NCBI GenBank assembly: GCA_000827205.1
Contig: KN832569.1
Coordinates: 68,328-132,327 of the forward strand
Direction: 5' to 3'
Source: Plicaturopsis crispa FD-325 SS-3
Lineage: Eukaryota; Basidiomycota; Agaricomycetes; Amylocorticiales; Amylocorticiaceae
DNA: 64,000 nucleotides
Below are positions 14,239-24,660 of this stretch, piece after piece (position 1 is the first letter of the stretch; the number at the start of each line of letters is the position of its first letter). Made by a program: the position numbers and the translations under genes. The notes under the pieces are model-generated. The model had not been told where the DNA came from. It made no database searches and worked only from the letters and a program-made list of their open reading frames with translations.

Positions 14239-15341
14239 TCAATACGCAGTCCATTGTTTCTCAAGCATGAACGCAAGGCCATCCTTGATATCGACAACAA
14301 CCGAGCGATACCTTGTCTGCGTGCCCTCCGGAAATCCAATCGCCGACCCCGGCGGCGCGATCGTCCTGTCCGCCTCCAGCTCAAAATCAAACGGCTCCAC
14401 GAACTCCCGTATCCTATCGTTCCACCCGCCCGGCGTTATATCGTCGCTCGCCCAGTGCGCCTTCCTATACTCCCAGTGCTCGGGGTACCAGCCGCAGTTC
14501 TCCCAGTCGATGATGGCGGTGATCGTGCTGCCCTCGATCATGATGTTGCGCGGGGCGATGTCGCCGTGGGTCAGGACGAGGGGGTGGCGCCGGTTATGCG
14601 ACTCGTAGCACGCGGGACTGCGCTCCTTTAGCCATTCCATGGGCATGCCCTGCCGGACGTACCAGTTCATCTCGTCCTCGTCTGCAAAGGGGCCCACCGG
14701 GTGGAACTCGATGCGGCTGTCGTGGACCGGGCCTCCGATAACAGAGCAGATAGTGGTGGAAGAAGGCGGCGGAGGGAGCGCTCTGAGCTGAGAGACGAAG
14801 TAGCGTAGCTGGGCAATGATACTGTCCTGGGTGGCTCTGGGCATACGCGTCCACTCGTGTATGTCGAAAGAATGACCGGGTACTCTGGACATGACGATGA
14901 ATCTCGTTCCGAGCCAGTTAAATGGGCCCCAGACCCTCGGGACGGGAATGGTCGTATGCCGCCGCACGTAGCGGATAGAGGCCGCCTCTGCGTCGGCATC
15001 GCCATGACATTCTTTGAGATATAACCAACGTTGGCCAGTCACTACGTGTGCAGTGGTCGTCAGAAACAGGACACATCGGATGCAGGAAAGGGAGGCTTAC
15101 AACTCCATATGCGACGAGAAATGGCCCAAGAATACCGGCGGATCCAGTATAGCAAAATCTTGGGCCATAGGTGCCACCCTGGAGTTTTGGTAGGCTTGAT
15201 GCCGAGCCGCTTGAAGGACTCCTCAAGGGCCGTGCGGGGCTGGAAAAAGATGTTAATGGATAACATTGTAGCGTGATTGAAATAGAACTCAATGCTTGCT
15301 CGTGGTGGCGGGAGACGAGGGGGTGCTCGAGAAAATAACAT
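14239..15341 (-). CDS. APH-fold kinase, array copy 1
   Basis: Three exons, complement(14239..15041, 15101..15239, 15300..15341), give 327 residues. The fold is that of aminoglycoside phosphotransferase/choline kinase. An ATP-anchoring Lys lies in WLYLKECHG. Then come RHTTIPVPRVWGPFNW, RFIVMSRVPGHSF, the catalytic loop LVLTHGDIAPRNIM (HxDxxxxN) and the metal-binding IIDWENCGWYPEHWEY. The real substrate is unknown; fungal members are rarely characterised. Exon 1 encodes MLFSRAPPRLPPPR, matching the Arg/Pro-rich starts of copies 2 and 3. Its donor is GC (CGA|GCAAGC at 15299), where the paralogues have GTAAGC; this 60-nt intron is in frame, so readthrough or a start at an internal Met is possible. 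Copy 1 is the most divergent of the three. Confidence 0.8.
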
Positions 15342-16211
15342 GATCAGTTTCTTGATGTTGCAGTGCGAAGATCGAAGAATCGACTCGGACGAAGACGCTT
15401 TGTTCAAGGGTCTAGCGCCAGTCTCATGAAACGGCTATATGCCCCACAAGTTGTGAGACGCACGGGATTCAGAGCTACGATACAAGCAGTTATGAGAGGA
15501 CTAAGCAATGAAGTGAGTGAACAGCAGTGGAAGTTGCCACTTGACTTCAACTTGACAGAACTTGACTTCCGACTGTCCGAATAAGGCAAGCATGCAAGTT
15601 CTGCTGGCTCTGACAAAACACGCTCGGTCCATGCTGCAGCCGCTGCATCAATGGGCTGTCCCTGTCCTTTGTCTAGTACTATCCACTCTCCTACTTTACT
15701 CGGCAAAGTTATCTATCGTCTGGGGCCAAGCAAGATCGAAGAAGGAATTCTACTCCCGCAGAGATCATTGGCCATCGTGTGGGCCCCGAGATAGTCACGT
15801 AGAGTGACTGGTACTAGGTTGACTCGGACATCGTTGCCATTGACTTCTCGATAAGCTTGAATCCAGTTATCAAATGACTACTGCTCATGTTATGTGTGTA
15901 CGATCTGTGCATTGTGCCAGTCAGTCCTCGTGTCCAGTCAACGTAGCGACGAGATCTTCAAGTTTTATCGACCAGGTCGTGCTGCACAGCAGTTACTAAC
16001 GGCCCTAAAACGGCGTTTACCGGGACCCGATAAGTATCTGCATTGTTCTCTTTCTATCTTACAATCGATGAGCCAGGGCAGTGCGCCCTCTCCCCCGGAT
16101 ATATATATATATATCTCCCTACCTGCTCCGTTGCAGCCATACCTTTGCCACCCACCAATACCCTGCTCAATAACGCCACCAATCTACTATTTACACTTGC
16201 GCCACATCACC
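15342..16211. promoter_or_regulatory. Divergent intergenic region, module 1
   Basis: The 870 bp lie between the 5' end of kinase copy 1 (minus) and small-protein copy 1 (plus), so they must hold both promoters. A short alternating AT tract at 16099-16115 lies about 100 bp upstream of the plus-strand start and may act as its TATA region. Around 15540-15570 a short motif (acttgactt) recurs. The 15-bp motif shared by modules 2 and 3 was not found here. Confidence 0.5.
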
Positions 16212-16788
16212 ATGGGTAAGTATCTCCCGTACCCGTATCTCAAGCATGCTCGTCGCTGATTGGCATGCATTCCTCACAGCCGACTTCGAGTCCCCCGTTG
16301 GAATCGCTCTATACCACACCGATCCGCCGACATTCGACTACTTTCACTGGGCGCTTGTCGTGGGCTTCACGCCGTCACTTTTCACTGGATATGTGAGAAT
16401 GTATCAAATCCTGAGGCCGGAGCCAACCCCAGGCCAGCAGCAGACAGGTCCCCTATGGATAGCCAGCCATAAAACTGTCAACCTTATGGGAACCAACCGC
16501 TTCGTTGGCATTGTCTACATTGGAAGGCTCCCATTCGGTCTCAGCGATTTGCACACGTGGATCAGCGAAGTCCCTGCGGAGAAATTTGACTACCCTCCGC
16601 CTCCCTACTTCTGGACCTGTGCTTGGTATATCATCAGCATTATCGATGGCCTTCGCGAGCTCTTAACCGATGAAGGCGACCTACCGACCGACCTGGTGGC
16701 TCTCTACAATCGAGTGCGCGAGAGAGGCACGGTCTTGGCGGCTATGGTCCGGCATAATGCGCAGCCGAACGTAGTCCGCATCTCCTAG
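16212..16788 (+). CDS. Small 'HWALV/CAWYI' protein, array copy 1
   Basis: Two exons, join(16212..16215, 16280..16788), give 170 residues. Exon 1 is only ATGG before GTAAGT, and the second exon gives MADFESPVGIALYHT. Recognisable elements shared with the other two copies are VGIALYHT, DYFHWALVV, the YVRMYQI strand, RFVGIVYIGRLPFG, WTCAWYIISIIDGL and RVRERGTVL. There is no signal peptide and no clear membrane helix. A His in a beta strand (HWALVV) and a Cys at the start of a helix (TCAWYII) recall circularly permuted papain-like (LRAT/NlpC-P60) proteins; this is fold-level inference only. It may belong to an uncharacterised fungal DUF. It pairs divergently with the kinase. Confidence 0.7.
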
Positions 16789-17164
16789 GATAACTCCCAG
16801 TCGTTCTGCCTCATGCTGCTGCTCTTCCACCCCGGCTCTGGTCCCAACGTCGACCTGAGTCGCGAGAGCTCGGCACGCCACCTCCTCTTCTTACTGTCCA
16901 CCATCTCACTTTTGTGTCCGCTTTCATTGGTATATACATACCTTCACTATACTTGGATCCACCGACACGATGCACTTACGATTTTTGTTTCACTATTTGT
17001 ACGTCTTGCCAATATCTCTGTCTGACTGCGAGCAATTCATATGGGATGTATATGTCACCGGGGTGATCATGGTGCTGCTAAGAATGGATGGCACGAAATT
17101 ACCCCTCCGATGTTTACTTCGAGCGTCGAGACGCACAAACAAGTCGAATATATACTACGCATGA
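16789..17164. other. Intergenic, between modules 1 and 2
   Basis: 376 bp between convergent 3' ends. I see no gene. Unlike the equivalent spacer downstream of copy 2, no PhzF-like fragment is visible here. Confidence 0.5.
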
Positions 17165-18195
17165 TCACTCAGTCACAATTGAGCGGTACCGTAACTTCGA
17201 ACCGCGAGCAAAGCCGACGCATGACCCTCCAGGATCAACAGACTGGTCCGCTGCCAGCTCCAGGTCGAATGGCGGCACAAATTCCCGGATCCTGTCCCGC
17301 CATCCCTTATACGCCGGGTTGGTGCAAGTGCGATCAGCCTTGATGTACTCCCAGTGGGCAGGGTACCACCCGCACATCTCCCAGTCGATTATTCCCGTGA
17401 CTGTGTCGCCGTCGACCATGATGTTACGTGGGGCGAGGTCCGCATGCGTGAGGACCAGAGGATGGCGCCGAGAATGCGCTTCGTAGCATATAGGGCTGTA
17501 CGTCCGCAGCTGCTCCATGGGCATGCCGATCCGCACGTACCAATTCATCTCGTCTTCGTCGGCGAACGGACCTACTGGATGGTACTCGATGCGGCTGTCA
17601 TAGATAGGGCCTCCGAGGACGGAGCATATGGCTGGAGATGGTGGGGGATTGATGGCTCTCAGCTGAGAGACGAATTCGTGGAGCTGAGCGATGAGGCTGT
17701 CCTGCGTGGATCTCGACATACGTTGCCAATCCAACATATGGAGAGCATGACCCCGCACTCTAGTCATGACAATTAGTCTGGTTCCGAACCAGGAGAAAGG
17801 ACCCCAGACTCTTGGGACTGAAATCGTCGTATGCCGCCGAACGTAACGAATGGCCGCAGCTTCTGCCTCCGGATTGTGGCGAGATATTTTAATGAAGAGC
17901 CAGAGACCACCCGTCACTAGTAATGTAAAGTAAGAGTTATAATCGGTCTGCAAGCAAAAAAAAGCTTACCACACCAGATACTGCGAATAACTACCCAGGA
18001 TATGCGACGGATGCGGCGCACCGCGGCGTTAATATGTTGCCTCCACCATGGGGTAGGTCTAATACCGTACCGCACGAAGCGCTCCTCGTCAGACAGAATC
18101 TGATAAACTGTATACATTAAATGCACCAACTCGTAGCCAAAACAAGTGCTTACCGGTGGCGGTGGACGTCGAACGCGCTTTCGAGGGGACGACAT
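17165..18195 (-). CDS. APH-fold kinase, array copy 2
   Basis: Three exons, complement(17165..17916, 17970..18099, 18154..18195), give 307 residues. Exon 1 encodes MSSPRKRVRRPPPP, a basic, proline-rich start; exon 2 has ILSDEERFVRYGIRP. The kinase core shows WLFIKISRHN, RHTTISVPRVWGPFSW, RLIVMTRVRGHALH, LVLTHADLAPRNIM (catalytic HxDxxxxN) and IIDWEMCGWYPAHWEY. The protein stops at RYRSIVTE, about 16 residues before the end of copy 3 (RYRSVVVD followed by a charged tail), so the C-terminus is shortened while all catalytic residues remain. Intron positions and phases match copies 1 and 3, and exon 2 is 130 nt in copies 2 and 3. Substrate unknown. Confidence 0.82.
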
Positions 18196-19031
18196 GATGA
18201 GTCCTAGTGTTCTCGAGCAGGGCAAGAGGAGTGCGATCGAAGTTGAAATGTAGTAATTGCAAGAGTAGCTACGCTCGTTTGCGCCTGAGAGACCCTGGTG
18301 TTTCCACTAGTTCATAGCAACCTGAGCAACTGCAAGACGAAGCGAAGCGGATTATGGAGTTCAAGTTAGCAACAAGTCCTGCAAATCATGAAGCCTTAAG
18401 TGGACTCACTCTGTGGAGAAGCCTGCCTGTTGAAACCCTGCCGGTCTGTAAGTGGCAAATATAATGCCTGTACTGGTGTGGTCAACGTTGGGGTTAAAAA
18501 TGTGAGGGCACCAGTGGCATGTTCAAGACAAGAGTGCTTCCATCAAGAGGGGTACCCGGCTCCCAAAATGGCAAGACGTTCATTTCCGAGGACCGACGTG
18601 CCAGTCCCGACTCCCAAGCCAGTCCTCGTTCGAAACTCCACCAAGCATTCAATCTAGACGACGATGAAAATCATTAGACCATCGCAGCTGTGTGCGCAGT
18701 ACTCACAATCCGAGGGGGTGAGCCATTGATATCTACCATACTTCCATTTATCAATGCTGACGGCCGAAGTTAATTGGATCAAACAATACTGATTAATACA
18801 AGTAGTACCAAGAGATCGACACTTCTGGGGATCTTTCCCCTTTGTCTATCAGCGCTCTTGTTCAATGCTTTGTCCAGCGCTCGGCCATACAATGTGCTAG
18901 GACTACAAATATCAGGGCGCACCAAAATACCACTGAGATTACAGCCTGTGGCAACCTACTACTCCAAACTTTGCGCCACCTCTGCCACTGCACTCCGTGG
19001 TGCGACATCGAATCCGAGTCCGCATTGCATC
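18196..19031. promoter_or_regulatory. Divergent intergenic region, module 2
   Basis: 836 bp between kinase copy 2 and small-protein copy 2. At 18583-18597 it contains tttccgaggaccgac, repeated exactly in module 3 at 21663-21677. Flanking sequence is also partly alike (for example gcctgcctgtt near 18420 and cctgcatgcctgttt near 21567), so the two spacers are homologous. The motif lies 388 bp from the kinase start and 435 bp from the small-protein start. Confidence 0.55.
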
Positions 19032-19605
19032 ATGCGTGAGTACGCACACCCTATCTACTGAATACGTGGCTGGTACTGATTGCCACATCTTAACAGCAGC
19101 CGAAAGTAAAATCGGAATCGCTCTCTACGAGCTCCCCGCGACGCCTGACTACTTCCATTGGGCACTAGTGGTTGTCAATTCAGAGAACGGAGGTTTCAGC
19201 GGAGGCGTTTCCGTATACCAAATCACGAACACGCGTACGGCAACCGGTCAACGATGGGCACCTTACCACATGAGCGTTTCCCTGGAGAATTCCGTCCGCT
19301 TCATTGGCATTGTCCAAATCGGAAGGGTCCCGTGGGGCACCTCCGAATTCTCCGAATGGATCGATACTATGCCTGTCGAGGACGCCAATTTTCCTCCAGC
19401 GGGGTACGGCTGGAGCTGTGCTTGGTACATACTCAGTATCATCGACGCCCTTCATCTTTCCTTGGTCGACACGCAGGGCCTTCCCGACAGCCCACTGTTG
19501 CTCTATCATCAAGTACGTCAGTGCGGTATGGTTTTGAATATCATGCGCAGGAGCATCTCCCTGCCCATCGTTCGTCTCGATGGTAGCCGAGTCTTAGTGC
19601 GTTAG
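19032..19605 (+). CDS. Small 'HWALV/CAWYI' protein, array copy 2
   Basis: Two exons, join(19032..19035, 19097..19605), give 170 residues. Exon 1 is ATGC followed by GTGAGT. Two adjacent acceptors (cag at 19096 and cag at 19099) both keep frame and differ by one residue. The product has KIGIALYEL, DYFHWALVVV, VSVYQITN, RFIGIVQIGRVPWG, GWSCAWYILSIIDALHLSL and VRQCGMVL, and ends in PIVRLDGSR. By eye it is about 70% identical to copy 3 and clearly less like copy 1, so copies 2 and 3 separated more recently. The candidate catalytic His and Cys are conserved. Function unknown; the constant pairing with an APH-type kinase is the only contextual clue. Confidence 0.75.
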
Positions 19606-19874
19606 CCCGGATCTTCGGGAAAGCCACGATGTGCCGACTCCACAACTCCAGTCTCACCCACCCTCTTCCAGCGTACTCACAGCTTCGAGTTCTACATGGC
19701 GATTCACAGGCAATCCTGGTCCGTTCTCATCACAAGTGTCATTCTGTCCATGAGCGACGTAGAGTAACTGTCCTGAACACTGTAGTAGACCATCCTGTTT
19801 CTCCTGCTTTTCCGAGCGTTGCGTCATATATATCAACTCAAAAACGCCCTGTGAATCGACAGTTTATTTGAGGG

Positions 19875-20050
19875 TGCTCGTCAAGGGACAGCGCATCGTT
19901 GGGCGACGGCGCATTTTCGATGGCGGCGATGTCAACACGACCGTGTTCTAATTCTCCGAGTGGAATGCGATTTTGACATGCCAAACGCACATGACTGCAC
20001 GGTGTTTGCCTTTTCTGCGGGAATAAATCCAGTGTCTCTCATACTATCCA
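19875..20050 (-). pseudogene. PhzF-family gene fragment (decayed)
   Basis: This stretch is a degenerate copy of part of exon 3 of the intact PhzF gene at 22891-24079 (roughly 23495-23690). Matching segments, on the plus strand, include ggtgcattttcgatggggg (intact) against cggcgcattttcgatggcgg (relic), and shared gaccgtgtt, gattttgac, gactgcacgg, tgcgggaat and tccagtgtc in the same order and spacing. Only this internal part is recognisable; several small insertions or deletions and in-frame stops make it non-coding. Its place after small-protein copy 2 mirrors the intact gene after copy 3, so the duplicated unit once held three genes. From 19606 to 19874 and 20051 to 20302 I see nothing else. 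Confidence 0.75.
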
Positions 20051-20302
20051 TTTGTATGTACTATGAGATGACTGACCTGTATTCGAGCATCGAAGCTCAC
20101 GGCGGCCGAGTCAGAAGCAAAAGTTGGCCCAATATAGCAAGTATCGTGGTACGTTGAAGCTCGTTCTGGAGGCAAGAACAGTCACGCTCTCATCTTGTAG
20201 CTCCAGACTTACATGGCTGCATTGCCATTGCGCCTTGAATTGTTCCCCGTAGTATCAATTGATGCCGTAACACGTACTTGGGGACACGGGCAGTAAACCG
20301 CA

Positions 20303-21393
20303 TCACCGTACCTCCCATTCTTTCTCTAGAAGTGCGCCGAGGCCATCCTTTACATCAACGACGACTGAGCGGTACCGCAACTGCGTGCCTTCGGGGAATC
20401 CAACGCACGGCCCTTCAGGAGCAATGGTCTGGTCTGCCTTCAGCTCGAAGTCGAATGGCGGAACGAACTCGCGGATCCTGTCGTTCCACCCCCCGGGTGT
20501 GGGATCGTAGCAGCCCCGGTGTGCTTTGAGGTACTCCCAGTGAGCAGGGTACCAGCCACACATCTCCCAGTCGATTATCCCTGTGACCGTGCTACCCTCG
20601 ATCATGATGTTGCGCGGGGCGAGGTCGGCGTGCGTGAGGACTAGGGGGTGGCGTCGAGAATGTGACTCGTAGCAGATGGGACTACGCTCCTGCAATCGTT
20701 CCATGGACATGCCCTGCCGCACATACCAGTTCATCTCGTCCTCATCGGCAAAAGGGCCGACTGGGCGAAGCTCTATGCGACTGTCGAAGACAGGACCTCC
20801 ATGCACAGAGCAAATGGACGGTGACGAAGGAGGAGGCAGAGCTCTCAGCTGAGATATGGAGTCGCGCAGCTGGTATATGATGCTGTCCTGTGCGTCTCTT
20901 GGCATACGGTTCCACTCGTATGCGTCGAATGAGTGACCAGGTACTCTAGTCATGACGATAAATGTCGTCCCGAACCAGGAGAAGGGGCCCCAGACCCTTG
21001 GAACTGGTATGGTCGTGTGCTTTCGAATGTAACGAATTGCCTGCACTTCGCCTTGGGGATTTCCGTGGGACGCTTTCAGAAAGAGCCAATGGCTACCGGT
21101 CACTAGCGATGTGACGTGAGAATCACGATGGGGCGGAAAAGTAAAGCGCGACTTACTACGCCAGACGTTACGGCTAACTGTCCAGGAAGCGCGACGAATG
21201 AAGTACCAAACAAGTTTGATACACGATTGCCACCACGTAGCCGGTCTTATCCCGTACAGGGCGAAGCGCTCCTCGTCAGACAGCACCTGTTTCAAGCGGC
21301 GGACACATAACGATCAGCTGACTCCATGTCATAGCACAACATATTGCTTACCCGTGGCGGTGGGCGTCGCACACGCTTTCGAGAGGGAGACAT
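20303..21393 (-). CDS. APH-fold kinase, array copy 3
   Basis: Three exons, complement(20303..21102, 21157..21286, 21352..21393), give 323 residues, the fullest copy. The start is MSPSRKRVRRPPPR, then VLSDEERFALYGIRP and a linker to the kinase core. The core shows WLFLKASHGN, RHTTIPVPRVWGPFSW preceded by a Lys, TFIVMTRVPGHSFD, the catalytic LVLTHADLAPRNIM and IIDWEMCGWYPAHWEY, ending DVKDGLGALLEKEWEVR. Introns are GTAAGC (exon 1) and GTAAGT (exon 2) with AG acceptors, in the same places as in copies 1 and 2. The RKRVRRPPPR N-terminus could be a nuclear or protein-binding tag; that is inference. No signal peptide, so the product is likely intracellular. Confidence 0.84.
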
Positions 21394-22081
21394 GATTACT
21401 GATTTCTCCAGCGGGTTTCTGGTCGTGCAAATAGAACCGGCTGCAAGTCGTTGTTCTCAACGTCAGTAAAGCTCCAACAACTCTCCTTGATTTAGAGGTA
21501 GCAGGCTAAATTGAAACCTTGACAATGCACTCACTTTGTAGTGACCTCTTCAGGATGTTTGCCCCGCCTGCATGCCTGTTTCCAGGCTGAGACCGATGTA
21601 GAACATATTTAAATAGTAACAAGACGAGTCGAACAGGTTGAACGTCAAGAGAAGCCCTTTATTTTCCGAGGACCGACACGTGAGCCGGACGCCTTGGTAC
21701 TTCCGCTTCCGCCACTACCGCCGCACCGTTTGTGGCCTCCGTTAACGTTGGACTTGCGAGCTCAAAGCTGAAAATTTTCCAGAGCTCAGACAAGACGTGA
21801 AGTTTTTTTCCGTTTCTCTCTCTCCAGTATTACATGCTGACTACTAGAGGATCTGGTGGCACTCTTTAGACTTTTTCTTCGCCATTATCCGTTGCTGAAC
21901 TCAGGCCGAGCCTGTTGCGCGCAACATCAACACGGCATCGAATTTTGTCGCCCTATATGCACAATAATCCAATCCGATCATAGAAAAGTACTAGACAACT
22001 ACCTTGCCACGAGCAAAGCCGCTCGAGAACGCCACTTCTCTGTTATCGTCTGAAACCGTTTGCGATCCGCACCATCGCAGT
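21394..22081. promoter_or_regulatory. Divergent intergenic region, module 3
   Basis: 688 bp between kinase copy 3 and small-protein copy 3. It carries tttccgaggaccgac at 21663-21677, identical to module 2, about 270 bp from the kinase start and 405 bp from the small-protein start. Conserved position within an otherwise diverged spacer makes it a candidate shared regulatory element, although simple common ancestry is also possible. Confidence 0.5.
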
Positions 22082-22652
22082 ATGAGTGAGTCTGCATGTA
22101 TTATCACAATGCATATAATGAAGAGCTCTAACTAGAGCACCCACAGCTCAATGCAAACTTGGGATCGCTTTGTACCAGCTCTCCGGGACGCCGGACTATT
22201 TTCACTGGGCACTAGTCGTCGATGCAGCAAATGGAAATTTCACCGGAAGTGTGCGCATATACCAAATCACAAACACGCAGGCTTCCATCGGTGGCCACAA
22301 TTGGGAGCCGCTCAACATGACCGTCTCTCTAAATCGTACCCTCCGTTTTATTGGAATCATCGAAGTCGGAAAGGTCCCGTGGGGTATCTCCGACCTCGCT
22401 AGATGGATTGATACTATGCCTGTCGTGGATCCCGATTTTCCTCCGCCTGGATATGCTTGGAGCTGTGCGTGGTACATACTCAGCATCATCGACGCCCTTC
22501 ATCTGTCCTTGATTGACGCGGAGGGCCTTCCCGACATCCCTCTGGTTTTCTATCAGCAAGTGCGTCAATGCGGCATGGTCTTAAAGATCATGCGCGAGAA
22601 TATCCCCTTACCCATCGTGCGCCTCGATGGTAGTCGGATTCGGGCGCATTAG
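22082..22652 (+). CDS. Small 'HWALV/CAWYI' protein, array copy 3
   Basis: Two exons, join(22082..22085, 22147..22652), give 169 residues. Exon 1 is ATGA before GTGAGT and the second exon starts after cccacag, giving MTQCKLGIALYQL. Conserved elements are DYFHWALVVD, VRIYQITN, RFIGIIEVGKVPWG, AWSCAWYILSIIDALHLSL and VRQCGMVLKIMR, ending in PIVRLDGSR. Two conserved prolines precede the Cys helix (FPPPGYAW). The most constant residues across copies are the His of FHWALV, the Cys-Ala-Trp-Tyr helix start and the RFIGI strand, as expected if these form an active site. The gene is convergent with the PhzF gene downstream. Confidence 0.75.
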
Positions 22653-22890: not shown

Positions 22891-24079
22891 CTACTCTGCC
22901 AGAGGGACGCGAATCCACCCCTCACCAATCTTCACCACTTCCCCTCCAACCCAACATTCTTGCGCCTGGCCATCGCTAGCCACAACACGTCCAGTGATTG
23001 CGCTTGGTCGACCGATCTCCGCACCCTGGCGGATAGTGTACCCCGATGCACCGGAACGGGGAAGGATGCCAATGTGCAGAAGGACAAGCCCGAGACTAAA
23101 AGGGAGGGAAGATACCGCCGATGTAAAAAGAGACCTTGACACGATAGGAACTGGTGACTGCTTACGCTAGAGACGCGGACCCTGTGGCAGGATCTGGTGG
23201 ATGGACGTTGTAGCTATTCATTTACATGGGATAGATTCGCATTACAGACTGCTCACCCTCGAAATCTGTCGGAAACACTCGTTGGTGTATCTTGGCCGGC
23301 TGCTCCGAGCTTGTGTCGACGGAGAACAGGACGATAGCTACGGCCTTTCCATCCGCGCCATTTACACTGTCTAAGAACCGTCGAATTTCTGCCGGAGCCG
23401 GCTTGGCATCGACGACGCTCGAGTCCTCTGCAGCGCGCACATATATGAATTCCAGTCCACACGATGCCCTGTGGAGCGACAGTGTCTTCAAGGACTGCTT
23501 GTCGAGGGACAGCGCGGCATTCAACGAGGGTGCATTTTCGATGGGGGCGACGAAGGATGGCGGAGACGACAATTCGACCGTGTTCGGATTCTCCGCGGGG
23601 AATGAGATTTTGACGTGACCGTATGGGCACGACTGCACGGCGTCTGCCTTACCTGCGGGAATGACTCCAGTGTCCCGCATGCTATAGATTTAGATGAGTT
23701 CACTAGCCTGTTGTTATTATGTTGCATACAGCGACATCATACCTCCAGGCCGATCCCAGGGACGGATGTCCAGCGAATGGAAATTCTTCCGCGATGGTGA
23801 ATATGCGCACCGAATAGTCGAACGGGTCCCCCTCGCCCGGTGGAAGGGGGAAAGCCGTCTCGGAGAGATTGAACTCTGATCTCGACGGACTGCTATTAGC
23901 TTATGCAATGACGAGACAGTCTCGGTCATGATAAGATTCGTACCTTTGGCGATGGCCTGAAGCTGCGCTTTGCCCAGGCCCTGAGTACCATGCACGACGG
24001 CCAGCTGGTTCCCCGTGAACGGTTTCCCGGGGAGACAAAACACGTCAAGGAGTGTATAGCTCAATCGTTGCTCTGACAT
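22891..24079 (-). CDS. PhzF-family isomerase/epimerase
   Basis: Five exons, complement(22891..23095, 23166..23193, 23257..23681, 23743..23875, 23944..24079), give 308 residues. The family (bacterial PhzF, yeast Yhi9) has a diaminopimelate-epimerase-like fold; most eukaryotic members have no known substrate. Landmarks are YTLLDVFCLPGKPFTGNQLAVV at the start, AIAKEFNLSETAF with the catalytic Glu, EFPFAGHPSLGSAW and FEDPATGSASLALG. The EDPATGSA motif appears only if the 63-nt intron ends at CCACCAG (23194); an earlier AG breaks frame. Exon 4 is 28 nt. The last exon ends VGEGWIRVPLAE-like. A decayed partial copy lies at 19875-20050, linking this gene to the kinase/small-protein array. Confidence 0.85.
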
Positions 24080-24660
24080 GATCTACAAGTCGATTCACAT
24101 GGCTTATATCAACATCTGCAGATAGTGTTCACGGCAAATGGTAGGTTTGGGACTTACTTTTAGATGGGATTGTCGAATCCTGTGAAGAGGAGTATCAACT
24201 CTATGAGAATCAAGACACCCGAAGGAAGCGGGCCCAACGAGTTCAAACCGTACGTTCACTGTACCGCGACTGTACCGCTGAGGTCCTGGACAAGTTTTAC
24301 GAGTAAGTAGAAATAGAGTGTCGACTTCAAAATGACGACCTACAAGTTGTTGAAATCCAGGTAAAAACATGACTTTGACGCGTCAATCTGACTCGACGCG
24401 TCCGCGGACAAACGCGCGCGGTTTGGCGACAAGCCTAAGCACAACGACTCACAGGACTAGGTAAGGATGATATATTCCATAGCTGCCACACGGACTAGAA
24501 ACGCAAACAAGCGGGGAGCAATATACGAGAGTAAACGAGTGTACCGGGTAACCACAATCACAGAAATGAACGAGCGACGGGTATAGATAGGCGACAGAAA
24601 ACGGCGAGAAAGGTGCATTTTTTGAACACCAAGTGTCCTGCAACAAGAAAATCGGTGCGA
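24080..24660. other. Intergenic
   Basis: 581 bp between the 5' end of the PhzF gene and the 3' end of CDC12, so it holds the PhzF promoter. I see no coding frame, RNA gene or repeat. Confidence 0.5.

Follow-up and report, generated by a model that had tools for sequence, protein, structure and literature searches.

A three-unit tandem array of divergent APH-family kinase and DUF6914-like genes in Plicaturopsis crispa, a possible two-gene accessory module

Introduction

Among the described systems that come closest to the locus reported here, the Spok spore killers pair a kinase-like domain with a second activity and evolve by duplication, and their resistance requires the kinase domain (PMC6660238). 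In the permuted NlpC/P60 enzymes (PPPDE/DeSI, LRAT and YiiX) a His at the start of a strand precedes a Cys at the start of a helix (PMC3142127), and DUF6540 is listed as papain-like with a Cys-His-His triad (PMC10318531). Here we analyse a locus of the wood-decay fungus Plicaturopsis crispa FD-325 SS-3 in which a gene for an APH-family kinase (K1 to K3) and a gene for a DUF6914-like protein of about 170 residues (S1 to S3) stand head to head in three tandem units. The locus lies in a window of 64,000 bases, C16:68328-132327 (contig KN832569.1, 700,875 bases; genome 33.2 Mb), and positions without a contig name refer to this window.

We tentatively favour, at somewhat less than an even chance, a two-gene accessory module that was amplified by two segmental duplications and whose products act jointly on one substrate. 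The literature that we found, judged mostly on titles and the beginnings of abstracts, held no description of such a kinase/papain-like pairing; DUF6914 was absent from the papers found in the literature search, and a targeted search on APH expansion in Agaricomycetes returned nothing.

Results and Discussion

The array occupies positions 14239-22652, and each of its three units consists of a kinase gene on the minus strand and a small-protein gene on the plus strand in divergent orientation. An earlier note on this window had claimed three units with a period near 3 kb, starts facing each other across 0.7-0.9 kb and conserved introns, all of which is confirmed. The six genes lie at the positions given there, the direct repeats are spaced by 2.88 and 3.19 kb (kinases) and 2.80 and 3.05 kb (small proteins), one intergenic region of 870, 836 and 688 bp (units 1, 2 and 3) is common to both genes of a unit, and the exon sizes agree exactly with our models, which were built with consensus splice sites. 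K1 (14239..15341) has exons at 15300-15341, 15101-15239 and 14239-15041 (42/139/803 nt), K2 (17165..18195) at 18154-18195, 17970-18099 and 17165-17916 (42/130/752 nt), and K3 (20303..21393) at 21352-21393, 21157-21286 and 20303-21102 (42/130/800 nt); K2 is without the last 16 aligned residues present in K1 and K3. The exons of S1 (16212..16788) are 16212-16215 and 16280-16788, those of S2 (19032..19605) 19032-19035 and 19097-19605, and those of S3 (22082..22652) 22082-22085 and 22147-22652, the first exon being 4 nt long (ATG plus one base) in all three copies. K1, K2 and K3 are letter-identical to the NCBI proteins P0004, P0005 and P0003, respectively, and S3 is identical to P0001, whereas the NCBI record of S1 (16212-16788) starts longer and that of S2 (19032-19605) ends differently at the C-terminus. 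Intron 1 of K1 (15240-15299) carries a GC-AG splice pair; K2 and K3 have GT-AG.

None of the six gene models contains a stop or a frameshift, and the possibility of pseudogene copies was rejected because all six are open. In their main stretches the kinase copies match each other in tblastn at E of at most 8e-112 and the small-protein copies at E of at most 8e-33 (S1 and S3 share 46% identity); matches of the short second kinase exon are far weaker (E about 1e-8 to 0.008).

The array could have arisen by just two segmental tandem duplications in succession, since the trees of both families agree on (1,(2,3)). Support for this grouping is moderate and below the tool's star (92/88 for the kinases, 88/92 for the small proteins); of the 32 kinase hits, 14 entered the kinase tree, and the small-protein tree, which drew long-branch warnings, had 7 rows. 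Copies 2 and 3 differ at fourfold sites by 0.524 in the kinases (95% interval 0.429-0.629) and by 0.444 in the small proteins (0.315-0.574), and because these intervals overlap, one event fits both genes. Recent gene conversion between the kinases was considered and rejected, as sliding identity revealed no near-identical block (the top 150-nt value is 83%, K1-K3).

The extent of the second duplication is marked by a remnant of a further gene. The array is flanked by a gene for an FtsJ-like methyltransferase on one side and by a PhzF-like gene on the other (partial model at 22891..24082, minus strand, with repeats D8, D10 and D13). Of three pieces of the PhzF-like gene, that at 23717-24082 resembles PF02567 with E 4.8e-4, short of the curated cut-off, and the other two have no match. 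Between S2 and K3, a stretch of 208 bases (19846-20053, minus strand) aligns locally to 23466-23691 of the PhzF-like gene with a score of 146, the maximum of 100 shuffles being 30, and its reading frames are broken. In the stretch to the left of K1 and in that from S1 to K2, this comparison yielded no more than shuffle-level scores. Judging from this remnant, the second duplication carried PhzF-like sequence, which later decayed while the kinase and small-protein genes stayed.

The earlier note had also argued that repeated co-duplication of two intact genes implies a joint role. This does not follow: two segmental events explain the array and copy any neighbours, PhzF-like sequence was copied too, and co-duplication is therefore no proof of cooperation. 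The mode of origin of the array is ordinary. Unequal crossing-over may simply have duplicated two unrelated accessory genes that chanced to be neighbours, with separate reasons for the retention of each; such passenger linkage we consider a serious possibility, if also short of even. Segmental duplication produces such companions automatically, the PhzF-like sequence included, but kinase and small protein both survive in all three units, whereas the PhzF-like copy decayed.

The claim that each gene was kept intact is borne out by comparison of nonsynonymous (dN) and synonymous (dS) divergence, in which dN is well below dS. For the kinase pairs dN is 0.22-0.30 and dS 1.3-1.6, the latter near saturation; S2 and S3 differ by dN 0.20 and dS 0.79, and S1 differs from the other two by dN 0.50-0.55. 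With dN/dS at about 0.15-0.37 among the copies of both families, the kinase and the small-protein genes are each under constraint. Three intact copies, two concordant trees, this constraint and the loss of the PhzF-like sequence are what the DNA itself documents.

The kinases belong to the fungal branch of the APH family. K1, K2 and K3 score 64.0, 65.2 and 66.6 bits against PF01636, all above the curated cut-off of 23.2, and carry the HxD....N and IDW motifs. As had been claimed, the catalytic residues are kept in every copy (Lys, Glu, catalytic Asp, Asn and the Asp of IDWE, 3/3); we take the Lys, Asp and Asn to be catalytic and the further Asp to bind Mg. The predicted structure of K3 (model m2a67d47701a3) has an APH fold, with APH(2'') and APH(3') enzymes among its best structural matches. 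On an alignment of 12 rows, the N-lobe with its nucleotide-loop hairpin may be incomplete: K1-K3 match the Pfam profile (239 positions) only from position 25-38 onwards, and residues 32-58 of the K3 model form a long helix near the N-terminus, in a stretch where the first strands and the nucleotide loop would be expected. Aminoglycosides need not be the substrate, and to our knowledge the substrates of fungal APH kinases are mostly unknown.

The small protein is likely a papain-like cysteine protein of the family DUF6914, as its predicted structure suggests. S3 passes the curated cut-off of PF21858 (28.2 versus 27 bits); S2 (25.7 bits) and S1 (15.8 bits) stay under it, yet are plain homologues of S3. 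Other sub-cut-off Pfam names for the six proteins, such as DinB_2 and PyocinActivator, were set aside as chance. In the AlphaFold model of S3 (m2138dc70be13), H21 opens a strand (21-28) and C108 opens a helix (108-118), the order His...Cys being that of the permuted NlpC/P60 enzymes. PPPDE1 and DeSI are among the top three VIA structural matches, the best being TseH, a type VI secretion effector; families missing from the VIA list are not thereby excluded. We take the proteins behind the six best re-aligned matches to be permuted papain-like, of the PPPDE type. The fold and the catalytic sites of kinase and small protein alike are predictions from models, and of the proposed "kinase and hydrolase" the second half holds as a reasonable guess, given the modelled fold with Cys and His in place. 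The small-protein profile matched no PDB sequence at E up to 10, and the best match of S3 in a viral structure library reached only E 0.1.

At a site chosen by eye, the candidate third polar residue is a Gln (YQI) in all three copies, whereas it is His in LRAT and DUF6540. S1-S3 would differ in this site from DUF6914 (PF21858) and DUF6540 (PF20174), and they also differ in having CAWYI instead of a CQDW-type motif. Six of seven scanned paralogous pieces match both families (E up to 1), so that DUF6914 and DUF6540 overlap. Cys and His are kept in S1-S3 and in the relatives P0039 and P0040, but the Cys is replaced by Ser in P0036 and by Asn in P0038. The latter losses would fit a protein that is no longer an enzyme and instead binds or regulates a partner, perhaps the kinase. 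The retention of both residues in the other five proteins speaks against such a role, which we think very unlikely. In the nearest small-protein paralogue (C2:1973406, L015 1363-1872; 31% identity), Ser-Ser stands in place of the Ser/Thr-Cys of S1-S3, and this paralogue may for that reason be inactive.

TseH as best structural match also brings to mind a selfish or allorecognition module in which the kinase would counteract a papain-like protein that does harm, much as killing and resistance reside in separable domains in Spok. In a search by shared five-residue words that scored the best 7998 candidates, P. crispa alone yielded close relatives of S, which does not amount to species restriction, and the kinase domain is required for Spok resistance. 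Unlike Spok (PMC6660238), the array encodes the kinase and the second protein in different genes, with no nuclease in the Pfam results for the six proteins and no evidence of drive; we hold a selfish role to be highly improbable.

Linkage of the two families was surveyed in the P. crispa genome, where all counts are lower bounds. We found at least 17 APH loci outside the array (one weak, on C11, E 0.09; about 20 with the array) and at least 7 such DUF6914/DUF6540 loci. Surroundings were scanned for 14 of the 17 APH loci (4 at about 7-10 kb or more per side, 10 at about 1.5-2.3 kb); among the small-protein loci, four were covered within about 10 kb, those on C12 and C4 lie inside kinase regions, and C16:204899, about 115 kb from the array, was covered for about 1.5 kb. 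In 2 of 9 stretches the kinase escaped our kinase profile, and those loci rest on Pfam. Several paralogues went into the combined small-protein profile, which makes their matches to it a matter of construction; for the C12 and C4 genes, the first detection came from a profile built without them and from Pfam.

Outside the array the pairing is seen twice more, tight in one case and loose in the other. Downstream of the best-scoring kinase paralogue (C12, 36% identity), 298 bases past the end of its open frame, the same strand carries a DUF6540 gene with the motifs HWSFW and CRAWC (C12:251553-253083; L006 636-1070 and 1369-2166), and on C4 an APH kinase (C4:648069) and a DUF6540 gene are about 7 kb apart (L039 1-780 and 7464-7985). 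Under uniform placement, at least one of seven loci within 1.5 kb has P 0.011 and at least two within 8 kb P 0.0013, values that we treat as a lead only, given the post hoc choice of test and a simple null. The earlier note had made its case depend on how the families are linked; within this genome they are mostly unlinked (five of seven small-protein loci), the exceptions being the pairs at 0.3 kb and about 7 kb. Passenger linkage gains from these five loci and from 12 of the 14 scanned non-array kinase loci; the related small protein next to the best-scoring kinase paralogue counts against it.

The favoured reading, joint action of the two proteins, can be spelled out as follows. The locus would be an accessory module in which an APH-fold kinase is teamed with a DUF6914 cysteine protein of the permuted papain-like kind (NlpC/P60/LRAT/PPPDE-type). 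Both would be made together from the common promoter region and would share a single substrate, a small molecule or a lipid, with the kinase phosphorylating a hydroxyl and the cysteine protein hydrolysing or transferring an acyl or amide group. The copies would owe their retention to the importance of dose or substrate range, for instance in detoxification or accessory metabolism.

Several observations weigh against this reading. Constraint was seen for each gene separately, which does not by itself show cooperation, and dS is near saturation for most pairs. No APH kinase lies near five of the seven small-protein loci outside the array, for which the nearest non-array APH match is on another contig or at least 0.69 Mb off; the nearest paralogue of S, C2:1973406, has no APH match within about 10 kb, and no small-protein match was found around 12 of the 14 scanned non-array APH loci. 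The C12 pair is a same-strand pair whose DUF6540 protein is not close to S, and the linkage test was devised after the hits had been seen, with a null that ignores clustering of accessory genes. TseH, CLN5 and the 2A proteins are counted here as papain-like or H-box/NC proteins. Finally, the divergent regions (15342..16211, 18196..19031 and 21394..22081 for units 1, 2 and 3) share a single 15-mer, TTTCCGAGGACCGAC, in two of three units. It is identical at 18583-18597 and 21663-21677, 449 and 419 bp ahead of the S starts of units 2 and 3, and these are its only two sites in the genome. In unit 1 even the closest site shows 5 mismatches, and the likeness of the unit 1 region to the other two is at shuffle level. 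A promoter conserved across the three units was rejected on these grounds.

Conclusions

A joint function of kinase and small protein is plausible, and we regard a joint enzymatic role and passenger linkage as about equally likely. It would be a bolder step, and one that we think rather improbable, to propose that fungi use an undescribed two-enzyme module of APH kinase and DUF6914/DUF6540 permuted-papain protein that recurs at separate loci in different gene orders and was amplified threefold here as a lineage-specific chemical or self/non-self defence cassette. DUF6914 gains a likely, model-based fold and active site, and its pairing with APH kinases becomes testable. Should the two genes prove to be neighbours in other fungi as well, the cysteine protein would offer a lead to the substrates of APH kinases.
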